A stretch of 64,000 bases of DNA from positions 124,001 through 188,000 of the forward strand of contig NZ_JAMXOD010000001.1 of NCBI RefSeq assembly GCF_024721305.1, written 5' to 3'. Both the position numbers and the translations under genes were made by a program. The notes under the pieces were generated by a model. It worked only from the letters and a program-made list of their open reading frames with translations, made no database searches and had not been told where the DNA came from. This stretch comes from Aequitasia blattaphilus. GTDB taxonomy: Bacteria; Bacillota; Clostridia; Lachnospirales; Lachnospiraceae. This document shows, in pieces, positions 2,455 through 15,051 of this stretch. Position 1 is the stretch's first letter, and every line of letters begins with the position of its first letter.

Positions 2455-4041
2455 TTATTCTTTTATATCTTTTGGAATAAGTTCCCAATTACGTATCACG
2501 GCACTGTCATCAAAAGGTGTATCCAAATCTTTGCCAGTCAGCCATTTGCGTAAAGTGGAATGAACATTACGAAAACGTTTCCAACCAGGACGCAAGCGAT
2601 TCCAGGTGTATTTGGCTCCACTGAAAAAACTTCTAGACATAATAGGGTCAGTGGTGAGCATACTGTTACTTCCATCCATAAGCCAACCAAGGGCGATACT
2701 GTGATGCCAGTGTATCATCTCGAATTCCAACTTTTCAAAAGCACGTCGTGGGACAAGTGCAACTTGAAAGTTTGGATTTACCCTCATATAGGATTCAATT
2801 CGCCACATCATTGTATGAAGCATCTCATATGGAATGACAACCTCTCGTCCAAGAAGAAGACTAAGGGGAAGGCTTACTACTTTTTTCCCGCTGAGTCCAG
2901 TTCTTACGTCTTCACGACAGAGTATTATTTGGCAGGTTCCTTTTGCTAAGTTGTTTTCCTGTTCCAGATGGGAGAAGAGGTAGTCTGGAAGATCAGGAAG
3001 AGGGTTGGGAGCACAAAGAGCTTCCCACTCTTTTCGAGTCAAAATTCCAAAGCTTGGAATGCTGCTGCAGGAGGAGAAGCTTCCGTCAGGACTTGGTGCA
3101 TCTGCTTCGTCCCAAGGGGGTAGAACGGAGGGGAAACTATACTTTGCCTCGGTGTCAGCTGTACAAAAAGAGGACAGAAAACCAAATTGATCTAAGTGGA
3201 TACACCGGTCAAAGAAAGCATTGCAAGTGACTTGAGCGTTATATATGCTGCGGGAGTCCGTACTGTGAATGGTAATCAGCCCATCATCAGCTGTATTGTC
3301 GGATTCTACATAAGCCTGCCAATATCCAGGGATAACGGCATCGAAGAGCCTTGAGGTGACGGTACCATCATAATAAGCAGTCTTCAATATTCCTTTTAGT
3401 TGTATGGAAATCCAAAACATAGAAAAATAAGGACTTCCTTCTAAGTCATCAGTTTTGCGGTTTACCAATGTAAATGTGGTTCCTCGCTCTGTGGCTTTCT
3501 TCATTTTCAAAAGAAGACGAAGGGCGAAAGGAAGGTTGTTATGCCAAATACTGTCAAACTCCCCATGAACGCATATGACGATTTCTTGTCCAGGTGGAAG
3601 GAAATTTACGTATTCCAGCATGTCTATTGTTGCATCCATGACACCTTGTTTCCCTAGATATACCTCTGTGGTGAAATGGTATCTACCGGTCTGCTGTATT
3701 GGGGGAGGAATGGAACGTGTCCGCTTAACGGGAGCTTTATAATCGGTAAGAAATTTTCGAAGAGCTTCCTCTTTACTTTCTCCGCCAATACGTTGATTTA
3801 CGAAAAGATAATCCAGTTGTTGAGCCTGATCCAGTTGTGAAAGCACACGTGCCAATTCTAAAGAAGCCTGACTTCCAGCTTTAAGACGTCGGGTTCCCTT
3901 TTTATAACGGGAAATAATGGAGTTTGAAACCGCACATTGTTTCGAAAGTTCTAAAGCCGTAACGCCTAAGATATTCATTACTGTATTAAGAGGAGATGAG
4001 TCGAGCTCGTCATCATTTAAAATAAATTCAGATTGGGACAT
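2455..4041 (-). CDS. large XRE-type HTH regulator of unknown family
   Basis: A 528-residue protein with an N-terminal helix-turn-helix of the Cro/XRE kind (about residues 20-70, containing TALELSKQCAVSNSIISRYK). About 450 residues of predicted soluble sequence follow, with no membrane segment or catalytic motif that I recognise. It could be a ligand- or state-sensing one-component regulator. The start is set by GCGAGGT just upstream of the ATG. It is divergent from the GT2/GH18 transcription unit across a 307-base AT-rich region rich in palindromes, so that unit and itself are the natural candidate targets. The function of the C-terminal part is unknown. Confidence 0.65.
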   Translation of the reverse strand: MSQSEFILNDDELDSSPLNTVMNILGVTALELSKQCAVSNSIISRYKKGTRRLKAGSQASLELARVLSQLDQAQQLDYLFVNQRIGGESKEEALRKFLTDYKAPVKRTRSIPPPIQQTGRYHFTTEVYLGKQGVMDATIDMLEYVNFLPPGQEIVICVHGEFDSIWHNNLPFALRLLLKMKKATERGTTFTLVNRKTDDLEGSPYFSMFWISIQLKGILKTAYYDGTVTSRLFDAVIPGYWQAYVESDNTADDGLITIHSTDSRSIYNAQVTCNAFFDRCIHLDQFGFLSSFCTADTEAKYSFPSVLPPWDEADAPSPDGSFSSCSSIPSFGILTRKEWEALCAPNPLPDLPDYLFSHLEQENNLAKGTCQIILCREDVRTGLSGKKVVSLPLSLLLGREVVIPYEMLHTMMWRIESYMRVNPNFQVALVPRRAFEKLEFEMIHWHHSIALGWLMDGSNSMLTTDPIMSRSFFSGAKYTWNRLRPGWKRFRNVHSTLRKWLTGKDLDTPFDDSAVIRNWELIPKDIKE

Positions 4042-4204: not shown

Positions 4205-4236
4205 ATGCGCCAATTTCTTAAAATGCATTGACGCAT
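4205..4236. promoter_or_regulatory. inverted repeat over the GT2 -35 box
   Basis: Ten-base arms ATGCGCCAAT and ATTGACGCAT (one mismatch) flank a 12-base spacer. The right arm contains the TTGACG -35 hexamer, so a protein bound here would block RNA polymerase. The divergent XRE-type protein is the obvious candidate ligand; that link is inference. Confidence 0.45.
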
Positions 4237-4256
4237 ATTTATTGATTATTTATAAT
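4228..4256 (+). promoter_or_regulatory. sigma-A-type promoter of the GT2-GH18 unit
   Basis: TTGACG and a perfect TATAAT with a 17-base spacer. The predicted start near 4263 leaves a leader of about 85 bases before the GT2 gene. The rest of the 4042-4348 gap is AT-rich and shows no small gene. Confidence 0.7.
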
Positions 4257-4348: not shown

Positions 4349-6550
4349 ATGAAAAAAAGAAGACAGTTTAACACGGAAAAAAACACAACGCCTCTAGAGA
4401 TGGTTCATGCAACACCTTCGGCCACAAAAATAATGATGAATAAAATCTGTATATTATTAACGTTAATTTTTTGGGGCGTATATGTAGCATCCACAATCTT
4501 TGACCAGATGGTCAGAGGAAACAGGGAGTTCCAGAAAGTAGTAGAGGCATGGCTGTATATTTTGATTGTGACATCATTATGCTTTTCAGCGATGGTGTAT
4601 TTGATTTCACGACATGGAGCGTTAACGCGTTTTAAAGAGCATAGCCGCGTTCCTCGGGCAACGTTGGAAAAGTTTTTTTCAGAACATCAGGAGAGGATTA
4701 CTGTTTTAATTCCATCCTATGATGAAGAAGTGGCAGTTATTCGTCAAACGATGTTGTCTGCAGCTTTGCAGGAATATCCAGACATACAAATTCGGCTTCT
4801 GATTGACGATAAGCCAAATCCAAAGGACCCGGACAAGAAAGAAAAGCTGGATGCTACAATTGCGTTAGCAAAAGAAATAAACCAGCTGCTGGGAGAGCCT
4901 TGTTTACGTTTTCAAAAGGCTCGACAGGGTTTTGAAGAGTGTTATAAAGATAAAAGCCGTGTGAAGCCAAAGAGCTTAATTATGTTACAGAAAGAATATG
5001 ATTATGCCGCAAAATGGCTAAGGGACTTTGCGGATCAGGAACCGGAGACGGATCACGTGGATGACTTCTTTAATAATAGGGTTCTGCGAGATCTGGCGGC
5101 AGAATTAGAAACTACAGCAAGGGCACTTGAGCAGGCGGCAAAGGATAAAGATTATGCATTTTCTGTTACAAGAGTGTATCAGATGTATTCACGCTTAGTA
5201 TGGATTTTCACAGCAGAGGTGGATTACTTCCAAAGAAAGGAGTATATATCTCTGTCGAATGAAGCGAATAAAGCAATGAACCTAAATTCTTATATTGATT
5301 TGATGGGGGGAAGTTATCAGCTTATACATACCCCTGAAGGTAAGATTTTACAACGAGTTGAAGATGAAAAAAATGCAGACGTAATCATTCCAGATTCGGA
5401 ATATCTTTTAACGTTAGATGCGGACTCTATCTTATTACGAGAATACTGCTTACGCTTAGTATTCTTGTTAAATCAGGAAGGAAATGAAAGAGTAGCGGTT
5501 ACTCAAACACCCTACTCATCCTTTAGAGGATGTTCTACACGTATTGAGAGAATTGCAGGAGCGACAACAGACATTCAGCACGTTCTTCACCAAGGGACAA
5601 CTTATTATGGAGCCACGTTTTGGGTAGGGGCGAATGCGGTTATACGAAAAAGAGCGTTGGAAGATATCGCAGAGGAAGAAGAGGTTAACGGCTTTAAGAT
5701 ACGCCGCTTTATACAGGATAGAACGGTCATTGAGGATACAGAATCTAGTATTGATTTGGAAAAGCATGGTTGGACTCTTAAAAATTATCCGGAACGCCTG
5801 AGCTATTCAGCAACCCCACCAGATTATGGTTCGCTTATTATTCAGCGTCGTCGTTGGGCAAATGGAGGACTTTTGATTTTAACAAAGCTTTTTTCGACCA
5901 TACGTCGTCGTAAGAAGGAAGGGAAACCTCTTAGAAAAATGGAGATTGCACTACGGGTAAACTACATGGCATCCATTGCGTGGGCGAGCTTTGGCTTGAT
6001 TTTCCTTTTAGCGTATCCCTTTGATGACCGTCTGTTGAGTGTTTATATTGTAGCGGCAGCTGTTCCATATTTTGCATGTATGGCCAGTGATTTAAAATAT
6101 TGCCGTTATCGGCGAAGTGATATTTTCAGAATTTATGGTTTTAACTTATTACTTTTAGCAGTAAATTTGGCGGGAGTAATCAAATCTTTACAACAGATGC
6201 TATCTGGGGAAAAGATTCCTTTTGCCCGGACACCGAAGGTAAAAGATAGAACTGGCTCACCAACTCTATATATTATATCTCCATTAGTGATTATTGGCTT
6301 TTCGGCATTTATGAGCTGGAGGTCATTCAATAAGGGAAACTGGGCAAATAGTGCCTTTGCATTCTTTAATGCCTTTACCTGCTTATGGGCGGTATTATCC
6401 TATGTGGGAGTATTCAATATGTTGGCTGATTTATTGAATAATTTTTATAATTGGCTGTTTGTAGAAGTAAAGGAAGAGGTTGCAGGCGAAAACGGGAATA
6501 CGGAGGAGCTCGATTGGAAATCCGTACTCTATTACGGAAGTGGGAAATAA
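4349..6550 (+). CDS. family 2 glycosyltransferase, chitin/cellulose-synthase-like
   Basis: A 733-residue membrane glycosyltransferase. Two N-terminal membrane segments (about 28-50 and 66-86) precede a GT2 domain starting at ERITVLIPSYDEE. Catalytic landmarks are LLIDD (about 150), the DAD motif at D357-D359, the ED pair at E462-D463 and QRRRW at 499-503, which is the signature of processive synthases such as chitin, cellulose and hyaluronan synthases. Four or five C-terminal membrane segments would form the translocation pore. A helical insert of roughly 180 residues separates the UDP-binding Asp from the DAD motif and is longer than in simple synthases. With the next gene it forms a synthase plus hydrolase pair, suggesting an exported beta-linked polymer, perhaps of GlcNAc. 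No PilZ domain or separate c-di-GMP partner is visible here. Confidence 0.85.
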   Translation: MKKRRQFNTEKNTTPLEMVHATPSATKIMMNKICILLTLIFWGVYVASTIFDQMVRGNREFQKVVEAWLYILIVTSLCFSAMVYLISRHGALTRFKEHSRVPRATLEKFFSEHQERITVLIPSYDEEVAVIRQTMLSAALQEYPDIQIRLLIDDKPNPKDPDKKEKLDATIALAKEINQLLGEPCLRFQKARQGFEECYKDKSRVKPKSLIMLQKEYDYAAKWLRDFADQEPETDHVDDFFNNRVLRDLAAELETTARALEQAAKDKDYAFSVTRVYQMYSRLVWIFTAEVDYFQRKEYISLSNEANKAMNLNSYIDLMGGSYQLIHTPEGKILQRVEDEKNADVIIPDSEYLLTLDADSILLREYCLRLVFLLNQEGNERVAVTQTPYSSFRGCSTRIERIAGATTDIQHVLHQGTTYYGATFWVGANAVIRKRALEDIAEEEEVNGFKIRRFIQDRTVIEDTESSIDLEKHGWTLKNYPERLSYSATPPDYGSLIIQRRRWANGGLLILTKLFSTIRRRKKEGKPLRKMEIALRVNYMASIAWASFGLIFLLAYPFDDRLLSVYIVAAAVPYFACMASDLKYCRYRRSDIFRIYGFNLLLLAVNLAGVIKSLQQMLSGEKIPFARTPKVKDRTGSPTLYIISPLVIIGFSAFMSWRSFNKGNWANSAFAFFNAFTCLWAVLSYVGVFNMLADLLNNFYNWLFVEVKEEVAGENGNTEELDWKSVLYYGSGK

Positions 6551-6567
6551 AGAAGGGCAGGAATAAT

Positions 6568-8223
6568 ATGGAAAAGAAAAAAAAGAGGAAACGAAAGTTA
6601 GCATGGTCCCGGTTGCTTATAGTTTGTCTGATTTTGGGAGTGGCAGGAACAGGGTATTTTTATAGAGATGTGTTGTCGGCAGAGGGGGCATCCGAATCAG
6701 AAGGTGATGTTCAACCCTGGTTTGCATCTTATGTGGATGCAACATTAACGCCAGAATATCCGTTTGAAAAACGGAAGGACAATGTGGTACTATCATTTGT
6801 TGTTGCAGATGATAAGAAGGAACCGAGTTGGGGAAATGCATACACTTTGCAAGAAGCGGCGGAAGACTTGGATTTGGAACGCCGAATCGCTCGTCTGCGG
6901 CAAAATGGAGGTGAAGTCATTGTTTCCTTTGGAGGCCTGCTCAATAAAGAATTGGCTTTAGTTTATGAAGATACAGACGCCCTTAAGAAGGCTTATGAAT
7001 CGGTAATTAATACCTATGACATTAGTACAATTGATTTGGATTTAGAACAAGAAGGCCTGGCCAATAAAGAAGCAGGGAAAAGGCGTGGAGAAGCATTGGC
7101 TAAGCTGCAAAAGGAACGGGCAAAAAAAGGAAATGAGCTGGCTATATGGGTGACTTTACCGGTAATTCCTCAAGGACTAACGGAAGAAGGAACTGCTGCA
7201 ATTGAAACATTATTAGATGCTGGAGTGGATTTGGCAGGCGTTAATATTATGACGATGAATTACGGTGAGGCTCGTGATGAAAAGCTTTCAATGGCCGAAA
7301 ACTCTATTAATGCACTTAAGAAAACACATAGGCAGCTAAGAATAATATACCAGGAAGACGGGATACGATTAAGCGATCAAGCTTTGTGGAAAAAACTGGG
7401 AGCAACTCCGATGATTGGGCAAAATGATGTTGCAACCGAGATATTTACGTTAAAAGATGCAAAAAAGCTAAATGATTATGCACAGGAAGTAGGTCTTGGA
7501 CGATTGTCGATGTGGTCAGCTAACCGAGATAGCGTATCGAATGAAAACTCTGTGGGAAATCAAGTGGTATCTAATTATTATAGTGGGGTTGTACAGGAAA
7601 GCTATGCTTATGCAGATGCATTATCGAAACATATGAAAGGAAGCATTGCGGCAGGAGCAAAGCAGCGTACGGTTTCAGATATTACAAAAGACGAAGTAAA
7701 TAAAGCCGATGATCCTGAAACTTCGCCCTATGAAATTTGGTCAGAGTACAAGGCCTATTTAGCAGATACAAAAGTAGTTTGGAGACGAAATGTTTATCGG
7801 GCGAAATGGTGGACAAAAGGTGACATGCCAGATGCACCGGTATTACAGGAAAGTGCTATACCCTGGGAATTGGTAGGTCCTGTTATGCCAGGTGAAAAGC
7901 CAATTGAGAATGTATCGCTGCCAAAGGGACATTATATGGCATGGGATGAAGCAGCGGAATACCATTCTGGTGACCGGGTTATGTATGGTGGAAATGCATA
8001 TGAGGCAAAATGGTGGAACCAAGGAGAAAATCCGGAAAAATCCATCTCGGGTGGAGATGATGTTCCGTGGCAGGCAATCAGTCAAGACGAGATTAAAAAG
8101 ATTGTCCGAGGAGATATCGTTGACATGAAAGCGGTTGCTCAACCGGAAGAAACGACAGAGGTTATGGAAGATCCGGCTGTACCTGCCGCAGAGTCAGTAG
8201 ATGCAATTCCGGAATCAGAATAA
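6568..8223 (+). CDS. membrane-anchored GH18 (chitinase-like) protein with two chitin-binding modules
   Basis: The start is the ATG at 6568, 18 bases after the GT2 stop and behind AGGGCAGGA; the longer frame into the GT2 gene has no ribosome site. The 551-residue product has a lysine-rich N-terminus and a membrane segment (about 12-30), then a GH18-like barrel. The catalytic motif reads STIDLDLE with the acid Glu at E160 and Asp at 156 and 158; the first Asp of the usual DxxDxDxE is Ser. Two CBM5/12-type modules follow, each with an AKWW core (residues 412 and 480) and a trailing PW. The C-terminal tail is acidic and Pro-rich. The protein probably binds or trims the polymer made by the GT2 enzyme outside the membrane; activity is inferred. 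Confidence 0.85.
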   Translation: MEKKKKRKRKLAWSRLLIVCLILGVAGTGYFYRDVLSAEGASESEGDVQPWFASYVDATLTPEYPFEKRKDNVVLSFVVADDKKEPSWGNAYTLQEAAEDLDLERRIARLRQNGGEVIVSFGGLLNKELALVYEDTDALKKAYESVINTYDISTIDLDLEQEGLANKEAGKRRGEALAKLQKERAKKGNELAIWVTLPVIPQGLTEEGTAAIETLLDAGVDLAGVNIMTMNYGEARDEKLSMAENSINALKKTHRQLRIIYQEDGIRLSDQALWKKLGATPMIGQNDVATEIFTLKDAKKLNDYAQEVGLGRLSMWSANRDSVSNENSVGNQVVSNYYSGVVQESYAYADALSKHMKGSIAAGAKQRTVSDITKDEVNKADDPETSPYEIWSEYKAYLADTKVVWRRNVYRAKWWTKGDMPDAPVLQESAIPWELVGPVMPGEKPIENVSLPKGHYMAWDEAAEYHSGDRVMYGGNAYEAKWWNQGENPEKSISGGDDVPWQAISQDEIKKIVRGDIVDMKAVAQPEETTEVMEDPAVPAAESVDAIPESE

Positions 8224-8244
8224 TAGAATAAGATAGAGCTGCTA

Positions 8245-8299
8245 AAATGCGCTTGTGTTAAGAGGAAAAGGATATTACCTCTCACGCAAGCGCATTTTT
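8245..8299 (+). terminator. intrinsic terminator after the GT2-GH18 unit
   Basis: Eleven-base arms AAATGCGCTTG and CAAGCGCATTT with further internal pairing (AGAGG with CCTCT), followed by a short T-run. It separates the polysaccharide unit from the sipW transcript. Confidence 0.8.
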
Positions 8300-8310
8300 G
8301 ACTTAATTAA

Positions 8311-8328
8311 CACAAAATAAATTTTGTG
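8311..8328. promoter_or_regulatory. perfect palindrome upstream of the sipW promoter
   Basis: CACAAAAT and ATTTTGTG with a 2-base spacer, a perfect 8-2-8 palindrome ending 4 bases before the -35 box. A half-site, GTTTTGTG, recurs at 8340-8347 inside the promoter spacer. It is a probable operator for the filament genes; the regulator is unknown. Confidence 0.5.
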
Positions 8329-8332
8329 CACG

Positions 8333-8361
8333 TTGATTGGTTTTGTGAATTATAGTAAGAT
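8333..8361 (+). promoter_or_regulatory. promoter of the sipW/filament gene cluster
   Basis: TTGATT and TAAGAT with a 17-base spacer, about 33 bases before the first sipW start codon. GGAGAGAAG provides the ribosome site. Confidence 0.6.
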
Positions 8362-8394
8362 ATGCCTCTATAAAGACACATTGGAGAGAAGTAA

Positions 8395-9018
8395 ATGAAA
8401 AAGACCACAATGAAACATAAGTTTCTTACCGTAATCGGAACTGCACTATGTGTTTTATTAATTCCGATACTGCTGATAAACATAACATTGATTATCAAGA
8501 GCTACACCAATCCAGAGGAGGTGCCAAGTGTAGGGGGATTTGTTCCAATGATTGTGTTAACGGATTCTATGTATCCCCAGATCCATTCAGGAGATTTGAT
8601 TGTTGGAAAAACAATTAAAGCAGAGGATGTAAAGGTAGAAGATGTTATTATCTTCTTCGACCCTCAAAGCAAGGATGATGCAGTTGTCACTCACCGTGTT
8701 ATGGAGGTAAAGAATGAGAATGGAAAGATTTCTTTTGTGACAAAGGGTGATGCCAATAATGCAAATGATGATATGGCCGTTCCGGCTAAAAACTTGGTAG
8801 GCATTTATGATTGGAGAATCCCAGGAGCCGGCAATATTGCCATGTTCATGCAGACAACGCAAGGATTAATTCTCTGTGTAATATGTCCGTTGATTTTATT
8901 AGTTGGTTATGACCTTTTAAGAAGGCGTAAATATGAAAAGGAAAAAAGGAAGGACACAGAGGCTCTGAAAGCAGAGCTGGAAGCACTTAAGGCACAGAAC
9001 CTTAAGAAAAAGAAGTAA
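8395..9018 (+). CDS. sipW: signal peptidase I, SipW (Ser/His) type
   Basis: A 207-residue membrane protease. The nucleophile is S58 in VLTDSMYPQIHSGD, and the general base is H100 in VVTHRVME rather than the Lys of ordinary bacterial signal peptidases. This Ser/His pairing defines the SipW/archaeal/ER branch. An N-terminal membrane segment (about 12-35) and a second one near the C-terminus (about 163-180) flank the catalytic domain. The tail after the last segment is cytosolic, strongly charged and looks like a short coiled coil. It lies 32 bases before a gene whose product has a SipW-type signal peptide, so that product is the likely substrate. Confidence 0.9.
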   Translation: MKKTTMKHKFLTVIGTALCVLLIPILLINITLIIKSYTNPEEVPSVGGFVPMIVLTDSMYPQIHSGDLIVGKTIKAEDVKVEDVIIFFDPQSKDDAVVTHRVMEVKNENGKISFVTKGDANNANDDMAVPAKNLVGIYDWRIPGAGNIAMFMQTTQGLILCVICPLILLVGYDLLRRRKYEKEKRKDTEALKAELEALKAQNLKKKK

Positions 9019-9050
9019 AGACAGTATTTAGTTTACAGGAGGAAGAAGGA

Positions 9051-10040
9051 ATGAAAAAGAATAAGGCAATGAGAATGGCATCAGCCCTTTTAGTGGCTAC
9101 TCTTCTCACAACGTCAGTTATTAGTGGAGTATTTGCGAAGTATACCACAAAAGCAGAGGGAAACGATACTGCCCGGGTTGCAAAATGGGGAGTTGTGGCT
9201 AAGCTGGAGGGATCACTGTTTGGTCCGGAATATGCAGATGCCGCAGGAGGAAATACCGTTGACACATCGGGCAAGACGATTTCTGTCTCATCAAAAATGG
9301 GAAGAGACAGTTCCGATGCAGGCTACGGAGAGAATCTAGTAGCCCCAGGAACAAAAAGTAAAGACGGAGCCTTTACCTGCACCGTTACAGGTACGCCAGA
9401 GGTTGCCGGCGTTATTGACATAAAGGCAAAAGGGAAAAATATTTCTTTAGCCAAAGGAACTTATGCAAGGATGACGTTTGTTGGAAAAATCACGAAAGAT
9501 GAGTATGATGCTGGTGGAGAATATTATTACGACTATAAGAGAGATAATGATCCAAATAAGGAGAAAGCAGGTTATCGAAAGGCTACTTCGTGGGAGGCCA
9601 GCAAAGAATACTATCAAGCTGAAGAAATATGTACATTAGATACAGACTATTACCCAGTTGTCTTTAATCTTTCAAGTACAAGCAATACGGTTTCATCCGA
9701 CAGTTTGGCGGCAATTATAGGGCAGCTGAACACAGCAGCTTCCTTTGCACCAGGTGACACACTTGATACTAAGGTTCCGCAGATATCTTGGGAGTGGAAG
9801 TTCTGTAATAGTTCTCCAGCTTGTGGAGGATATAGCACGGAGACAGGTAGTGGAGCTTCAGCTTGTGTCTATTGTATTGCAGATACCATTTTGGGAGATG
9901 TCATGGCAGGTCATGACCCTTATATCTATACATCCGGTACGAATACGGATGGTGGCGGTCCATATTATCCGATGGCTTCAAATAAGAGTATCACAAATCT
10001 TTCGCTGGATATCAATATGGCGGTAAGACAAGTAGACTAG
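9051..10040 (+). CDS. SipW-dependent exported matrix protein (TasA/BsaA-like), four-Cys type
   Basis: A 329-residue exported protein. The N-terminus (RMASALLVATLLTTSVISG, then FAKYTTKAEGNDTARVAKWGV) matches the alternate signal peptide cut by SipW-type peptidases, as in TasA and the C. perfringens BsaA-type biofilm proteins. The mature part looks like a beta-sandwich. Near the C-terminus is ISWEWKFC, then a four-Cys cassette (C-x5-C-x13-C-x2-C), then ADTILGD, which lines up with the WPFE...DTYLGN segment of the third exported protein of this locus. It ends LDINMAVRQVD, echoed in the second four-Cys paralog. A good ribosome site (AGGAGGAAGG) precedes the ATG. The likely role is a filament or matrix subunit; this is inference. 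Confidence 0.75.
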   Translation: MKKNKAMRMASALLVATLLTTSVISGVFAKYTTKAEGNDTARVAKWGVVAKLEGSLFGPEYADAAGGNTVDTSGKTISVSSKMGRDSSDAGYGENLVAPGTKSKDGAFTCTVTGTPEVAGVIDIKAKGKNISLAKGTYARMTFVGKITKDEYDAGGEYYYDYKRDNDPNKEKAGYRKATSWEASKEYYQAEEICTLDTDYYPVVFNLSSTSNTVSSDSLAAIIGQLNTAASFAPGDTLDTKVPQISWEWKFCNSSPACGGYSTETGSGASACVYCIADTILGDVMAGHDPYIYTSGTNTDGGGPYYPMASNKSITNLSLDINMAVRQVD

Positions 10041-10061
10041 TCTGAGATACGAAGAAGATAG

Positions 10062-10093
10062 TACCCCTCAGTTTGCAATAGGGCTGAGGGGTA
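10062..10093 (+). terminator. intercistronic hairpin after the first matrix gene
   Basis: Perfect 10-base arms TACCCCTCAG and CTGAGGGGTA with a 12-base loop and no proper T-run. It may act as a partial terminator or as a 3' stabiliser, giving more of the abundant subunit mRNA than of the genes downstream. Confidence 0.55.
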
Positions 10094-10119
10094 AAGTTTC
10101 ATTATAAAGCAGGGTGTAA

Positions 10120-10872
10120 ATGGAAAAAAGAAGTGATAAAAAGAAAGAGATATTCATAGGTTTTCTTATACTATGGGTTATTCTGTCTGTGGCAATATTA
10201 GGGAATCGATTAGTGGAAGCAGCAAAGGCTGAAGGAAATACGATTTCCTTGCTGCAAACGACTGGAACTTCTGCCAATAATGAGGAGCAGATATGGGAAA
10301 CAACAACAGAGATTGAGGTTTTTCGTGCCGCCTATCAAAACGACAGCAAAGAGATTTCAGTTTTGTCTTCTAATGAGGATAAGGTAATTGCCCCGGGAAC
10401 GAATCAAGAATATACTTTTAAAATCAAGAATAATAGTGATGAGACTATGAGCTATAAAATGACCTGTGAAGTTTTCACAGAGCCAAAGGATTTGTTTTTT
10501 CCAGTTGAGATGTCTCTAAAAAGTTACAGTGGAAGCTACCTTTTAGGTGACGAAGACACCTTAGTAAATGTGGAGGATATTTCACTGATTACGGATTTGG
10601 CAGATTTGGCAGGGAATCATTATGCTTTCTACACCTTGAACTGGCAATGGCCCTTCGAGTGGGGAAATGATGAATATGATACTTATCTGGGAAACAGGGC
10701 TGTGGAGGAAGATTTAAAGGTAACCGTCGTCATTAAGACAATTGCAGAGATGGATACGGAAAGAAACGGAGAACCAAAAACAGGAGATGGTGCAAAAATC
10801 AAGTTGTGGCTTGGGATTGCAGGATTATGTTTGCTGATTATAATTGTTTTATACTTCAAAAGGAAAAAGTAG
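10120..10872 (+). CDS. TasA-like surface protein with LPXTG-like C-terminal anchor
   Basis: A 250-residue protein with a Lys-rich N-terminus and a membrane segment (about 11-28). The extracellular part carries NWQWPFEWGNDEYDTYLGN, the WxW...DTxLG signature of SipW-exported TasA-like proteins, without the four-Cys insert seen in its neighbours. The C-terminus is EPKTGD followed by a hydrophobic stretch and FKRKK, the layout of a sortase sorting signal, although the usual Leu is Glu. It is therefore likely to be held at the wall or membrane and could anchor or nucleate filaments of the neighbouring proteins, comparable in role to B. subtilis TapA. No sortase gene is in the window. Without sorting it would be a membrane protein with two segments. 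Confidence 0.65.
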   Translation: MEKRSDKKKEIFIGFLILWVILSVAILGNRLVEAAKAEGNTISLLQTTGTSANNEEQIWETTTEIEVFRAAYQNDSKEISVLSSNEDKVIAPGTNQEYTFKIKNNSDETMSYKMTCEVFTEPKDLFFPVEMSLKSYSGSYLLGDEDTLVNVEDISLITDLADLAGNHYAFYTLNWQWPFEWGNDEYDTYLGNRAVEEDLKVTVVIKTIAEMDTERNGEPKTGDGAKIKLWLGIAGLCLLIIIVLYFKRKK

Positions 10873-10876
10873 GAAA

Positions 10877-11431
10877 ATGAAAAGATCAAAAGCAATTATT
10901 CGAACGATTATGCTTTGTATGGTAGGAATATTCATAGGAATCAGCCTCTATATGTTTAATGCAAACAAAATAATGGGAAATGCACTTCCCATGCCTTTCG
11001 GATACGGAGTGGCTATGGTACTATCTGGAAGTATGGAGCCGAAGCTTTCGGTAGATGATTTGATCTTTGTGAAGCAGACAGATGATTTTAAGGAAGGTGA
11101 TATTGTTGTCTATCAGGAATCAGGATACCTGATAGTACATAGAGTTGTCAGCATGGATGGAGAGCGGGTTCAAACAAAAGGAGATGCAAACGATACAGGT
11201 GATGAGCCAATTGAGAAAAAGAAAATAGAAGGTAAGGTTATTGGCAGAGTTCCCTTTGTTGGAGGTATTATAAAAGTTCTTAAAACCCCAGTTGGTACAA
11301 TCAGTGTGCTTGTGTTGGCCTTTTTATTATTGGAGTTTTCCTATAAAAAAGAAAAGAACAAAGATGATGAAGAAATTGAAAAGATAAAGGAAGAAATTGA
11401 AAGGCTTAAGAAAGAGGAAGAAGCAAGATGA
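10877..11431 (+). CDS. sipW: second SipW-type signal peptidase I
   Basis: The start is taken at the ATG at 10877, directly after the previous stop with AGTAGG before it; the longer frame would overlap the preceding gene. The 184-residue product has an N-terminal membrane segment (about 9-27), nucleophile S52 in VLSGSMEPKLSVDD and base H88 in LIVHRVV, so it is again a Ser/His enzyme. A second membrane segment near 140-158 is followed by a highly charged helical tail (EEIEKIKEEIERLKKEEEAR). Its stop overlaps the next start (ATGA), coupling it to the second four-Cys exported protein, its probable substrate. Confidence 0.88.
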   Translation: MKRSKAIIRTIMLCMVGIFIGISLYMFNANKIMGNALPMPFGYGVAMVLSGSMEPKLSVDDLIFVKQTDDFKEGDIVVYQESGYLIVHRVVSMDGERVQTKGDANDTGDEPIEKKKIEGKVIGRVPFVGGIIKVLKTPVGTISVLVLAFLLLEFSYKKEKNKDDEEIEKIKEEIERLKKEEEAR

Positions 11432-12339
11432 AAGAAAACAGAGTAATGCGGATCGTAGCTTTTCTTTTACTAGGGGGATTGGTATCAACGGCTATTGTAA
11501 GTGGAGTGACTGCAAGGTATACCAGTAAAAAAGAGGGGAGCTATTCTGCAAAGGTTGCACCCAGTGGCGTTCTTACCGCTACAACAGGTACACTTTTTCA
11601 TGAAACGGTTGAACCCAACACGACCAGTCCAGAGGGCGGATTGACACTGGGGGTTCATGGGGTTTCAGAGATGCGGGGAGAAGTTTTATGCTCAGTAGAT
11701 TATCAAAATATTTTTCTGGGAGAAGGGGTCTGGGGAATTATGATTCCAGATGAAAGCGTAACGGAAGAATCTTATGGATATAGAACCTATTACACGTTTG
11801 ATTCTACAAGAGAAGTATACACAATAGAAGATACGTTTGCTCCAGATAAAGTATATTATTATATGGAAAATGAGGTTTATGTTGAGCCAGGAGGATATTG
11901 GCCGATTGCCTTCCAAATAGCAGATAATAGCGGAGGATATGTGGTGCAGGAGGATGCAAAAACGACAACAAATACTCTGGAAGAAGCAGTAAACGTAATG
12001 GAAAGCGGAGTAACAGGAACCTTTGAAGCATATGAAAATTTAACAGATCGTTTCGGAAACCAAAATATAACATGGAGTTGGATGAACTGTATAAGGGATA
12101 ACTTCTGTGAAAAAAATGGCATTGTAATTGAAGGTGGAGAAGGAAGTGAAGGAAATATCTGCGATAATTGTAAGCGTGACAGAATCATACAGAATCTGAT
12201 GAATGGAAGCACAGCGAGTGTTGTGAGAAAAGAATCAGAAGAACCGGAAATAACCTATAAAATCCAGGATCATACATCAGACAGATGCAATCTTAATGTG
12301 GATTTGAATTTAAATATTGTGGTAAACCAAATCGATTGA
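11428..12339 (+). CDS. second SipW-dependent exported matrix protein, four-Cys type
   Basis: A 303-residue paralog of the protein at 9051-10040. It starts with a SipW-type signal peptide (VMRIVAFLLLGGLVSTAIVS, then ARYTSKKEGSYSAKVAPSG). It shares the block ITWSWMNC, a four-Cys cassette C-x5-C-x17-C-x2-C, the following RDRIIQNLM, and a C-terminus LNLNIVVNQID. Overall similarity outside these blocks is low, so the two have diverged for a long time. Its start overlaps the stop of the second sipW by 4 bases. It is probably a minor or alternative filament subunit with its own dedicated peptidase. The Cys residues could bind metal or form disulfides; which is not decidable here. Confidence 0.72.
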   Translation: MKENRVMRIVAFLLLGGLVSTAIVSGVTARYTSKKEGSYSAKVAPSGVLTATTGTLFHETVEPNTTSPEGGLTLGVHGVSEMRGEVLCSVDYQNIFLGEGVWGIMIPDESVTEESYGYRTYYTFDSTREVYTIEDTFAPDKVYYYMENEVYVEPGGYWPIAFQIADNSGGYVVQEDAKTTTNTLEEAVNVMESGVTGTFEAYENLTDRFGNQNITWSWMNCIRDNFCEKNGIVIEGGEGSEGNICDNCKRDRIIQNLMNGSTASVVRKESEEPEITYKIQDHTSDRCNLNVDLNLNIVVNQID

Positions 12340-12379: not shown

Positions 12380-12895
12380 TTAAATAATCAGGTATTTTTT
12401 TTCTTTTAAGGCGTTTTCCACATCATCCAATATCTCTTCGGAATCTGCTTCGATGGTATGGTAATGATAGCCAGAAGTAATATTCATAAGTGGAGTGGAC
12501 TTTCCGGATTTTATATCATTCAAAAAAAGGTTAGCATCCCGCCGGGATTTGATATTCATCGGTGCTTCTACACGTCCATAAATTTTATGATTCACAAAAA
12601 CATTGAGAATGCGGGCTCCATGATCGACAAAAGTATAGAGTTCATCCAGTATATCATCGGAACTGTGTCGAACCTTAAGAATGCGACGAGGAGTATCTGT
12701 ATCCCCGGCAGTATTTAGCACATACCCTTTATTAGTGGCAACAATATTATAATCAGCAACACGAAGAAGGGCAATATCTTGTACAATAACCTGACGGCTT
12801 ACTTGAAAATGTTTGGCAAGCTCGCTTCCGGATATGGGTATATCAGCGTCCTTTATATGTGATAATATGAGTTCTCTTCTCTTTTCCCCAGTCAA
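12380..12895 (-). CDS. niaR: NiaR-type transcriptional repressor of NAD synthesis
   Basis: An N-terminal winged helix (HTH_11, with ELAKHFQVSRQVIVQDIALL) is followed by a 3H domain with His residues in KVRHSS, TFVDHGARI and GYHYHTIEAD that would bind metal and niacin. The family represses NAD biosynthesis and niacin uptake genes when nicotinate is present. The best start is TTG at 12895: GGGAGG lies 5-6 bases ahead of it, just after the nadC stop. Upstream GTG and ATG codons (12919, 12910) lack such a site and would overlap nadC. It is the last gene of the nadA-nadB-nadC-niaR unit and so probably controls its own operon. Confidence 0.88.
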   Translation of the reverse strand: MTGEKRRELILSHIKDADIPISGSELAKHFQVSRQVIVQDIALLRVADYNIVATNKGYVLNTAGDTDTPRRILKVRHSSDDILDELYTFVDHGARILNVFVNHKIYGRVEAPMNIKSRRDANLFLNDIKSGKSTPLMNITSGYHYHTIEADSEEILDDVENALKEKKYLII

Positions 12896-12911
12896 AAAAA
12901 TACCTCCCATT

Positions 12912-13766
12912 CTATACACTGTGTAAATTTTTAAGTGATAAATCCAATATTGGTGAAGAATGTGTTAATGCTCCACTTGATATAAAGTCTACACCAATGG
13001 AGGTATAGTTTTCAACATTTTCTTTTGTGACATTTCCAGAACATTCGGTTTGTGCTCTTCCGTCGATATATTCAATTGCCTCCTTCATTTCTTCAACAGA
13101 CATATTGTCCAGCATAATAATATCAGCACCAGCTAAAACAGCTTCTTTTACCATGTCAAAATTTTCTACTTCCACCTCAATTTTACGCACAAAGGGTGCA
13201 TATTCCTTTGCCATGCGGACTGCATTTGCGACTCCACCGGCAGCACCGATATGATTATCCTTTAGTAAAATTCCGTCAGATAAATTATAGCGGTGGTTGT
13301 ATCCCCCGCCAACAGTAACTGCGTATTTCTCAAATATACGCATATTAGGAGTTGTTTTTCTGGTATCTAACAGTTTTGTCTTGCTTCCGTTTAAAAGCTT
13401 GGCTATGCTATTGGTATAGGTGGCAATTCCACTCATTCGTTGAAGAAAATTAAGGGCAGTGCGTTCTCCGGAGAGAAGTACTCTGATGTCCCCTCTTAAC
13501 AATGCAAGATGCTGACCCGGTTTTACCAAATCCCCATCCTTTACAGTGAATATAATTGCTACAGAAGGATCTAAAAGCTGGAATACACGTTCAAAAACAC
13601 CGAGGCCGGCAATAATACCTTCCTCTTTGCAAATCAAGGAAACTTCTCCTTCCTGCCCCTCTGGCATGACGGAGTTTGTCGTAATGTCTTCGCTGGTAAT
13701 ATCCTCCTTTAAAGCCTGTAATATTAAATCATCCGCATTTAATCCCATTGATATTTGATCTCTCAT
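12912..13766 (-). CDS. nadC: nicotinate-nucleotide pyrophosphorylase (carboxylating)
   Basis: Converts quinolinate and PRPP to nicotinate mononucleotide, the third step of de novo NAD synthesis. Family blocks seen include GERTALNFLQRMSGIAT, LDTRKTTPNMR, the Lys/His cluster KYAVTVGGGYNHRYNLSDG with ILLKDNH, and the IEVEVEN and IMLDN strands. About 284 residues, normal for the family. The start at 13766 (MRDQISMG) has AAAGGA upstream; ATGs at 13793 and 13748 are alternatives. It overlaps the end of nadB, which suggests translational coupling. Confidence 0.95.
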   Translation of the reverse strand: MRDQISMGLNADDLILQALKEDITSEDITTNSVMPEGQEGEVSLICKEEGIIAGLGVFERVFQLLDPSVAIIFTVKDGDLVKPGQHLALLRGDIRVLLSGERTALNFLQRMSGIATYTNSIAKLLNGSKTKLLDTRKTTPNMRIFEKYAVTVGGGYNHRYNLSDGILLKDNHIGAAGGVANAVRMAKEYAPFVRKIEVEVENFDMVKEAVLAGADIIMLDNMSVEEMKEAIEYIDGRAQTECSGNVTKENVENYTSIGVDFISSGALTHSSPILDLSLKNLHSV

Positions 13767-15051
13767 GATGTTTTCTCGTCCTTTCGATTTCATCTTTTAC
13801 AAGTTTACGATACGTCTTTTTCAAACCTTCATAGTCCTCATAAGGCTCTAAGCTTATGCGGTTTGTATGGCCATGGTTTACGATAGAGGTACTAATTGTT
13901 TTCTTAATTTCCTGAGCACATCGTTTGGCAAATACAAGGCTTTCCAATAAGGAATTACTAGCCAGTCGGTTTGCCCCGTGAACCCCATTGCAGCTGGTTT
14001 CTCCTATGGCGAAAAGCTGAGCCATGGAAGTTGCACCCCTGGTATCGGTTTCGATACCGCCCATATAGTAATGCTGAGCTGGTACGACAGGGATACATTC
14101 TTGTGTTAAATCATAGCCCTCTTCTAAACAGCGTTGATAGATATTGGGAAAGCGTTCCAGTATCTTTTCTTTGGAAAGAGCCTCCAAAGACAGCCATACA
14201 TAAGGGGTATTGTCAATCTCCATTTGCTTGTATATTGCATGGGCTAACAAATCCCGGGGAAGAAGCTCGTCAACAAATCTTTTCATCTGTGCATCGTACA
14301 GAAAAGCCCCTTCACCCCGGAGAGATTCGGAAATTAAAAAGCGCCTTCCCGGTTTCTTCATATATAAGGTAGTTGGATGAATCTGCACGTAATCCACATC
14401 TTTGAGCTTGATACCGTTCTTTATCGCAACAGCTAAACCATCTCCGGTTAAATGCGGGTAATTGGTAGAGTGCTCGTATAGTCCGCCAATACCTCCGCAG
14501 GCCAGGACTGTACGGCTGGCTTCAATTTTGATTAAAGAGCCATCTATTGTACGACCAATAATACCATAGCAGGTGTTTTTTCCGCAAATAAGGTCTACCA
14601 TAGTAAGATGGGGAATAAGCTCGATATTATTCCGTTCTCTGACCCTTTGAAGAAGCTTTGTGGTAATTTCCTCGCCAGTAATATCCTTGTGATAAAGGAT
14701 ACGTGGTTTGGAGTGGGCTCCTTCTCTGGTGAATTTAAGATGCTGATTTTGACGTTCAAATTCAACGCCGTAGTAAATTAAATCCTGTATGATTTTCTGG
14801 GAAGATCGAATCATAATGTCTACGGATTCCTTACAATTTTCATAGTGGCCAGCTTTTAAAGTGTCCTCCATATAGGAATCATAATCCTCAGAATCCGGGA
14901 GGACGCAGATACCCCCTTGTGCCAAAAAAGAATTACTCTCGGATAAATCCTTTTTAGAGATTAGAAGGATATTCAAATTCCTTGGTAAATTTAAAGCACA
15001 GAACAGGCCGGCAACACCTGTTCCAACAATAATTACATCTTTTCTTCTCAT
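13729..15051 (-). CDS. nadB: L-aspartate oxidase
   Basis: A 440-residue flavoprotein that oxidises aspartate to iminoaspartate, feeding quinolinate synthase. The N-terminal FAD motif reads VIIVGTGVAGLFCALNL; SNSFLAQGGI, LACGGIGGLYEHSTNY, HPTTLY and GETSCNGVHGANRLASNSLL are characteristic NadB segments. Somewhat shorter than the about 530-residue E. coli enzyme because the C-terminal helical domain is reduced, as in many Clostridia. In anaerobes fumarate can replace oxygen as acceptor. It begins 9 bases after nadA and overlaps nadC. Confidence 0.95.
   Translation of the reverse strand: MRRKDVIIVGTGVAGLFCALNLPRNLNILLISKKDLSESNSFLAQGGICVLPDSEDYDSYMEDTLKAGHYENCKESVDIMIRSSQKIIQDLIYYGVEFERQNQHLKFTREGAHSKPRILYHKDITGEEITTKLLQRVRERNNIELIPHLTMVDLICGKNTCYGIIGRTIDGSLIKIEASRTVLACGGIGGLYEHSTNYPHLTGDGLAVAIKNGIKLKDVDYVQIHPTTLYMKKPGRRFLISESLRGEGAFLYDAQMKRFVDELLPRDLLAHAIYKQMEIDNTPYVWLSLEALSKEKILERFPNIYQRCLEEGYDLTQECIPVVPAQHYYMGGIETDTRGATSMAQLFAIGETSCNGVHGANRLASNSLLESLVFAKRCAQEIKKTISTSIVNHGHTNRISLEPYEDYEGLKKTYRKLVKDEIERTRKHHERSNINGIKCG

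Follow-up and report, generated by a model that had tools for sequence, protein, structure and literature searches.

In the genome of Aequitasia blattaphilus (Lachnospiraceae), a gene for a membrane synthase of glycosyltransferase family 2 (GT2) is followed by a gene for a protein of glycoside hydrolase family 18 (GH18), and five genes of a SipW signal peptidase block lie directly downstream on the same strand. The locus raises the question of whether these seven genes build one composite surface matrix, as an initial annotation had proposed, and which polymer the synthase makes. The window studied is a stretch of 64,000 nt (contig NZ_JAMXOD010000001.1, 124,001–188,000), and coordinates are given as window positions. 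All seven annotated genes (4349..12339, plus strand) were found there as open reading frames (ORFs). The part of the initial proposal that survives is a near-obligate two-gene module, GT2 with GH18, which extends over several phyla and predicts bacterial chitin.

Pairing and spread of GT2 and GH18

The contigs of GTDB species were scanned with the GT2 protein, and the best 80 of 178 relatives were analysed with flanks of up to 10 kb; full 10-kb flanks on both sides were available in 61 of the 80 loci. In 79 of these 80, GH18 lies beside GT2: 78 have no more than 516 bp between the two genes, and one (L042) has 2313 bp. The remaining locus (L081) is on a contig that stops 46 bases past the GT2 match. 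Together with three plasmid loci, the pair is present in 82/83; GH18 is encoded downstream on the GT2 strand in 54 of them and divergently in 28. These counts rest on tblastn; the ORF clusters of GT2 and GH18 hold only 70 loci each, as the simple ORF caller lost genes, probably because antisense frames were called in their place in GC-rich records. The GT2 and GH18 distances across the 83 loci are correlated (r 0.85, with 0/1000 permutations as high), a value that is inflated by the kinship of the loci and to which shared ancestry contributes. The claim that the polymer synthase has a chitin-binding hydrolase of its own was borne out: conservation of the pair is strong and specific. The pair belongs to a known kind, the synthase-dependent exopolysaccharide systems with their own hydrolase.

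No third conserved gene general to the surroundings of the pair was found in ORF clusters across the 80 GT2 loci. A Pfam scan of neighbours (112/130 ORFs, 20 loci) gave 184 families, and the functions of the 25 commonest are scattered. A cluster of HAMP-GGDEF-EAL proteins is represented at 17 loci: its 14 Arthrobacter members lie 76–745 bp downstream of GT2, the two from Agreia lie 4–5 kb off and the one from Actinomyces is on the other side (the domains were scanned in L035 only, at 12716–14251). The position of this gene downstream of Arthrobacter GT2 suggests control by cyclic di-GMP.

According to record titles, the Bacillota hosts of GT2 include Neobacillus, Bacillus, Gottfriedia and Enterococcus, the actinobacterial hosts are many (e.g., Arthrobacter, Leifsonia, Cryobacterium, Curtobacterium and Microbacterium) and one further host is a Chloroflexi (Chloroflexota) bin. 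Patescibacteria are represented by Saccharibacteria, Dojkabacteria (including one complete chromosome of a metagenome-assembled genome), WWE3, Collierbacteria and Moraniibacteriota. Closer to the source the gene is rare: GT2 was matched in 1/299 genomes of the family (an even sample of 298 genera, E 1e-30), in 1/3 genomes of the genus (E 1e-10) and in 1/398 genomes of a phylum sample (E 1e-20), the source genome itself each time. In the GT2 tree (40 rows), the window copy groups with Bacilli loci (96% support in the approximate likelihood ratio test, SH-aLRT), and the Lactococcus copies stand one step further out (100%). Carriage on plasmids, the patchy spread and the isolation of the window copy in its family point to horizontal transfer. 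A phage or viral origin of GT2 was considered and rejected, with no GT2 relative in viral contigs, nor in phages at E 1e-10.

GT2 was found in 14 plasmid records, 13 from Lactococcus and one from Arthrobacter, and GH18 in 29, among them 25 from Lactococcus, with Cetobacterium and Kocuria also matched. All 13 Lactococcus GT2 records carry GH18 as well; three of these plasmids were read, and in each the pair adjoins prtP and prsA. A strict pairing is contradicted by 12 Lactococcus plasmid records with GH18 and no GT2 match; in the one that was read, Lactococcus cremoris pB26D (L103), transposases of the ISS1 family flank the chitinase gene. The pairing can thus be broken, and the arrangement in pB26D suggests that the synthase was secondarily lost in dairy strains. 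The same 12 records, and a distant GH18 (33%) without GT2 in one genome of the family (G054), would fit a nutritional or antifungal chitinase whose GT2 neighbour makes an unrelated product. Set against the adjacency in 82/83 loci across phyla and the parallel divergence of the two proteins, such an explanation is scarcely credible.

The lactococcal p41 polysaccharide of PMC11942015 was also considered as the same system and ruled out, p41 being a Wzx/Wzy cluster. The word ‘chitin’ is absent from the main text of the pan-plasmidome paper PMC6458302. No published description of the GT2–GH18 pair was recognised among the papers listed; preprints and most subscription-journal papers lay outside the search.

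The two enzymes and their candidate polymer

The GT2 protein matches Pfam Glyco_trans_2_3 with 110.3 bits (cut-off 27). Its D153, DAD 357–359, IED 461–463, Q499, R502 and W503, which make up the catalytic D, DxD, ED and QxxRW motifs of processive GT2 enzymes, are kept in 84/84 members, and in the predicted fold a GT-A domain is connected to a multi-helix membrane channel. Pfam, catalytic motifs and predicted fold agree on the processive enzyme that had been annotated. The fold is predicted to be of the cellulose/hyaluronan/chitin-synthase kind, with a conserved helical insert between D153 and DAD. This interval is ~137 residues longer than in BcsA (phmmer alignment); the insert forms helices in the predicted model and has a conserved DHVDxFF-type motif, and its position presumably also holds the plant-conserved region in plant cellulose synthases. 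QRRRW, a hallmark of fungal chitin synthases, is present in 82/84 members, the sole exceptions being the QRGRW of the Lactococcus plasmid copies L083 and L084.

GT2 scores far under the cut-off of every named family. The NCBIfam model of CelA (BcsA) gave 68.8 bits (cut-off 699.1) and that of PgaC/IcaA 55.9 bits (cut-off 422.3). The Pfam scan returned no PilZ match.

The catalytic part of GH18 has its best PDB match in 9buf_A (E 9.6e-45), with 2dsk at E 1.7e-28. The window copy stays under the Pfam Glyco_hydro_18 cut-off (23.4 vs. 29.6 bits) and is not among the 18/24 GH18 relatives that match this family at E 0.001. The catalytic residues D156, D158 and E160 are invariant in 83/83 aligned members (24/24 in a smaller set), and this DxDxE motif, together with the sequence kinship, places the protein with the chitinases. 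Carbohydrate-binding modules (CBMs) of family 5/12 (Pfam PF02839) were found in two stretches of the window copy (49.7 bits, cut-off 26.2) and in 24/24 scanned members. Of the annotation as an anchored chitin-binding GH18, the hydrolase and the CBM5/12 modules were upheld by sequence, and the anchor is a predicted N-terminal hydrophobic segment.

GH18 catalysis requires the N-acetyl group of the substrate and the CBMs are of the chitin type, which points to N-acetylglucosamine (GlcNAc) as the building block. On balance, as judged from sequence, we lean towards the GT2–GH18 pair as a self-contained synthase–hydrolase module for an extracellular amino-sugar homopolymer, most likely β-1,4-GlcNAc, that has been spread in part horizontally. 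GT2 would take UDP-GlcNAc at the cytoplasmic face, extend the chain and thread it outward through its own membrane helices. GH18, held outside by its N-terminal segment, would grip the chain by means of the two CBM5/12 modules and cleave it, setting chain length or releasing chains, and the chains may form a capsule or a biofilm matrix. We infer both the trimming role of GH18 and the matrix role of the polymer.

Long-chain chitin is regarded as a eukaryotic polymer. A bolder proposal, which we put forward tentatively as possible rather than probable, is that GT2 is a bacterial enzyme dedicated to chitin synthesis and has a near-obligate chitinase partner in Bacillota, Actinomycetota, Patescibacteria and on dairy Lactococcus plasmids, so that two genes would give a true chitin coat. 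If true, bacterial chitin would be directly testable in a safe and genetically easy host, by means of the two-gene module on Lactococcus plasmids. The pair would also offer a minimal model for a synthase and a hydrolase sharing one chain, and would change how the surfaces of Patescibacteria and the lactococcal prtP plasmids are seen.

Several observations, besides the inflated distance correlation, weigh against these readings. QRRRW is not universal, and the QRGRW of the Lactococcus copies is the same as in the BcsA aligned here. The fold of GT2 cannot separate cellulose synthases from chitin or hyaluronan synthases, and the solved structures nearest to the model are cellulose synthases. The match to Pfam Chitin_synth_2 (PF03142) is not significant (12.7 bits, cut-off 27, E 0.048), and GH18 enzymes can act on other β-GlcNAc glycans. 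As to the spread, a single branch of the GT2 tree sets off the Actinomycetota, and another the four Bacillota loci that are not on plasmids, so much of it may be vertical.

The cellulose synthase folds and the lactococcal QRGRW, along with CelA and PgaC as the best named families, both sub-threshold, speak for a different product: a β-glucan such as cellulose, poly-N-acetylglucosamine (PNAG, β-1,6-GlcNAc) or a mixed GlcNAc polymer, which GH18 would bind or edit. Cellulose is countered by the invariant catalytic acids of GH18, since it is no substrate for GH18 chemistry. A polysaccharide deacetylase is also absent from the 25 commonest of the 184 neighbour families (112 ORFs, 20 loci). We consider another polymer unlikely.

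A quite improbable alternative is that the pair yields soluble chito-oligosaccharides, as a signal or a nutrient store, with GT2 building the chain and GH18 cutting it down. The nearest solved GH18 (9buf) is named an exochitinase, and PMC5122149 considers this possibility for the fungal-type chitin synthases of proteobacteria. However, two chitin-binding modules and a membrane anchor would keep the enzyme on an insoluble chain, and capsule genes were found around GT2 at two loci (L004 and L005).

The SipW block and the unit structure of the locus

Both peptidases of the block pass NCBIfam TIGR02228 (107.5 and 82.7 bits, cut-off 51.85), the type of endoplasmic reticulum/archaeal signal peptidase found in SipW-TasA operons, in agreement with their annotation as SipW-type. 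Neither reaches the Bacillus SipW equivalog (99 and 75.5 vs. 190 bits). The relative of wall-anchor proteins reported in the operon was likewise recovered, passing TIGR01167 LPXTG_anchor (18.3 vs. 15.9 bits) with a C-terminal PKTGD-type motif. The two proteins named as SipW substrates are similar to one another and to relatives encoded next to SipW genes in other genera; they match no Pfam family at E 0.1, including TasA/camelysin M73, whose sole match reported in the genome lies elsewhere and under the cut-off. TasA-like protein 1 has no PDB match by sequence, and its predicted model has no Foldseek match at E 0.001, TasA being among the weak rows only.

TasA-like protein 1 was found in 8/299 genomes of the family (E 1e-5). 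Besides the source genome this gives seven SipW loci, of which L096–L100 (five genera, 8–14 kb each) were read and those of G055 and G253 left out. SipW and a TasA-like gene are present in 5/5, two SipW genes in 4/5 and a relative of the anchor protein in 4/5. With two peptidases, the window block is a variant SipW operon, and the recurring operon, with its TasA-like gene and often an anchor protein and a second SipW, is possibly a two-peptidase fibre system. Response-regulator genes adjoin two of the five loci (L096 and L098). In the window, a terminator-like hairpin of 13 pairs lies at 10062–10093, between the genes for TasA-like protein 1 and the anchor protein.

The composite locus of the initial annotation would be one functional unit in which SipW-dependent fibres are built on the GT2 polymer or joined to it. 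The direct adjacency of the blocks on the same strand in the source genome speaks for it, as does the plausibility of each as a matrix system. In the sister species (G077), nadA, nadB and nadC are kept, and the 19 kb stretch read from it (L112) has no match to either block; their shared absence fits a composite but does not say whether the blocks came together. Opposed to this, the 80 GT2 loci (E 1e-4) gave no SipW, TasA-like or anchor match save a weak SipW2 in L040 (E 4.6e-5), 0/7 other family genomes carrying TasA-like protein 1 have GT2, the source genome alone having both, and the five SipW loci have no match to GT2 or GH18. A strong hairpin also separates the two units: the segment 8224–8320, 3′ of GH18, folds at −28 kcal/mol (z −5.3, 0/200 shuffles equally stable), although the simple terminator scan, which covers loops of 3–8 only, does not list it. 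As this hairpin and its U run directly follow GH18, the SipW genes are probably transcribed apart from the pair.

In the samples searched, the blocks are thus adjacent only in this genome, the outcome that the initial annotation had named as refuting it. Given no co-occurrence in GT2 loci, family genomes or SipW loci, they appear to be neighbours by circumstance, and the composite is very improbable. The SipW block is probably an independent neighbour, a protein-fibre system of its own.

The features of the locus are collected in Table 1. The consensus scan found 31 promoter-like sites of the grade of the one upstream of GT2 in the region, against 21.9 expected. Divergent from GT2, a 528-aa protein is encoded at 2455–4041 on the minus strand. 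Its start resembles a helix-turn-helix by eye, it has no Pfam or NCBIfam match and a 41% relative is encoded in the sister genome (G077), on a different contig.

Table 1. Features of the GT2–GH18 pair and the SipW block in window coordinates.
Feature	Position	Strand	Basis
Promoter-like site TTGACG-17-TATAAT, 5′ of the GT2 gene	4228..4256	+	Consensus scan, 11/12; no functional evidence by itself
Processive membrane GT2 synthase, 733 aa	4349..6550	+	Pfam; predicted membrane segments, 2 + about 5
GT2 insert, mostly helical, about residues 156–305	4814..5263	+	phmmer alignment to BcsA; predicted model
GT2 QRRRW motif, residues 499–503 (QxxRW signature)	5843..5857	+	Alignment of members
Chitinase-like GH18 protein, 551 aa, ATG at 6568; predicted N-terminal anchor, two CBM5/12 modules	6568..8223	+	
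GH18 catalytic motif DLDLE (D156, D158, E160)	7033..7047	+	Alignment
Strong stem-loop and U run; probable terminator dividing the two units	8244..8298	+	Folding vs. shuffles
SipW-type signal peptidase 1 (SipW block)	8395..9018	+	TIGR02228; relatives in L096–L100
TasA-like secreted protein 1 (SipW block)	9051..10040	+	SipW-adjacent relatives in 5 other genera
Membrane/wall-anchor-like protein, PKTGD sorting-type motif (SipW block)	10120..10872	+	TIGR01167
SipW-type signal peptidase 2 (SipW block)	10877..11431	+	TIGR02228
TasA-like secreted protein 2 (SipW block)	11428..12339	+	Resembles TasA-like protein 1 and its relatives

Comparison with known systems

The Bcs systems combine the synthase BcsA with the cellulase BcsZ; here, a GH18 protein with CBM5/12 modules takes the place of the cellulase. 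Unlike BcsA, the window GT2 has no PilZ match and has the extended interval between the first Asp and DxD, and its CelA score is about a tenth of the cut-off.

In PgaABCD and IcaADBC, a GT2 synthase makes the PNAG polymer. The pair resembles these systems in a GT2 for what is probably a GlcNAc polymer and, according to PMC5933820, in an extracytoplasmic glycoside hydrolase domain, that of PgaB. However, unlike the window GH18, the PgaB hydrolase is described there as GH153: the consensus motif of GH18 is missing from it, and a deacetylase domain is part of the same protein. The pair also differs from PNAG systems in having no third general partner and in its sub-threshold PgaC score.

Fungal-type chitin synthases transferred to proteobacteria are described in PMC5122149, with a dozen bacterial hosts, mainly Gammaproteobacteria. 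They share with GT2 the membrane GT2 type, the QRRRW of most members here and a possible chitin product. They differ in that PF03142 is not significant here and in their hosts. The chitinases 9buf (called Exochitinase 1) and 2dsk are alike to GH18 in the sequence of the catalytic domain; the window protein differs from them in the predicted hydrophobic anchor at its N-terminus, the two CBM5/12 modules at its C-terminus and a near-constant GT2 neighbour.

The SipW block resembles Bacillus SipW-TasA and the sipW-bsaABCRSD operon of Clostridium perfringens (PMC7395162) in combining a SipW peptidase with several secreted proteins, and the response-regulator genes near two of its relatives are a further likeness to sipW-bsa. 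The same source predicts a hairpin after bsaA, with read-through giving a longer transcript, and the window hairpin after the first substrate gene parallels it. In contrast to these operons, the window substrates match no Pfam family, and the window operon adds a second SipW gene and an anchor protein of the PKTGD type.

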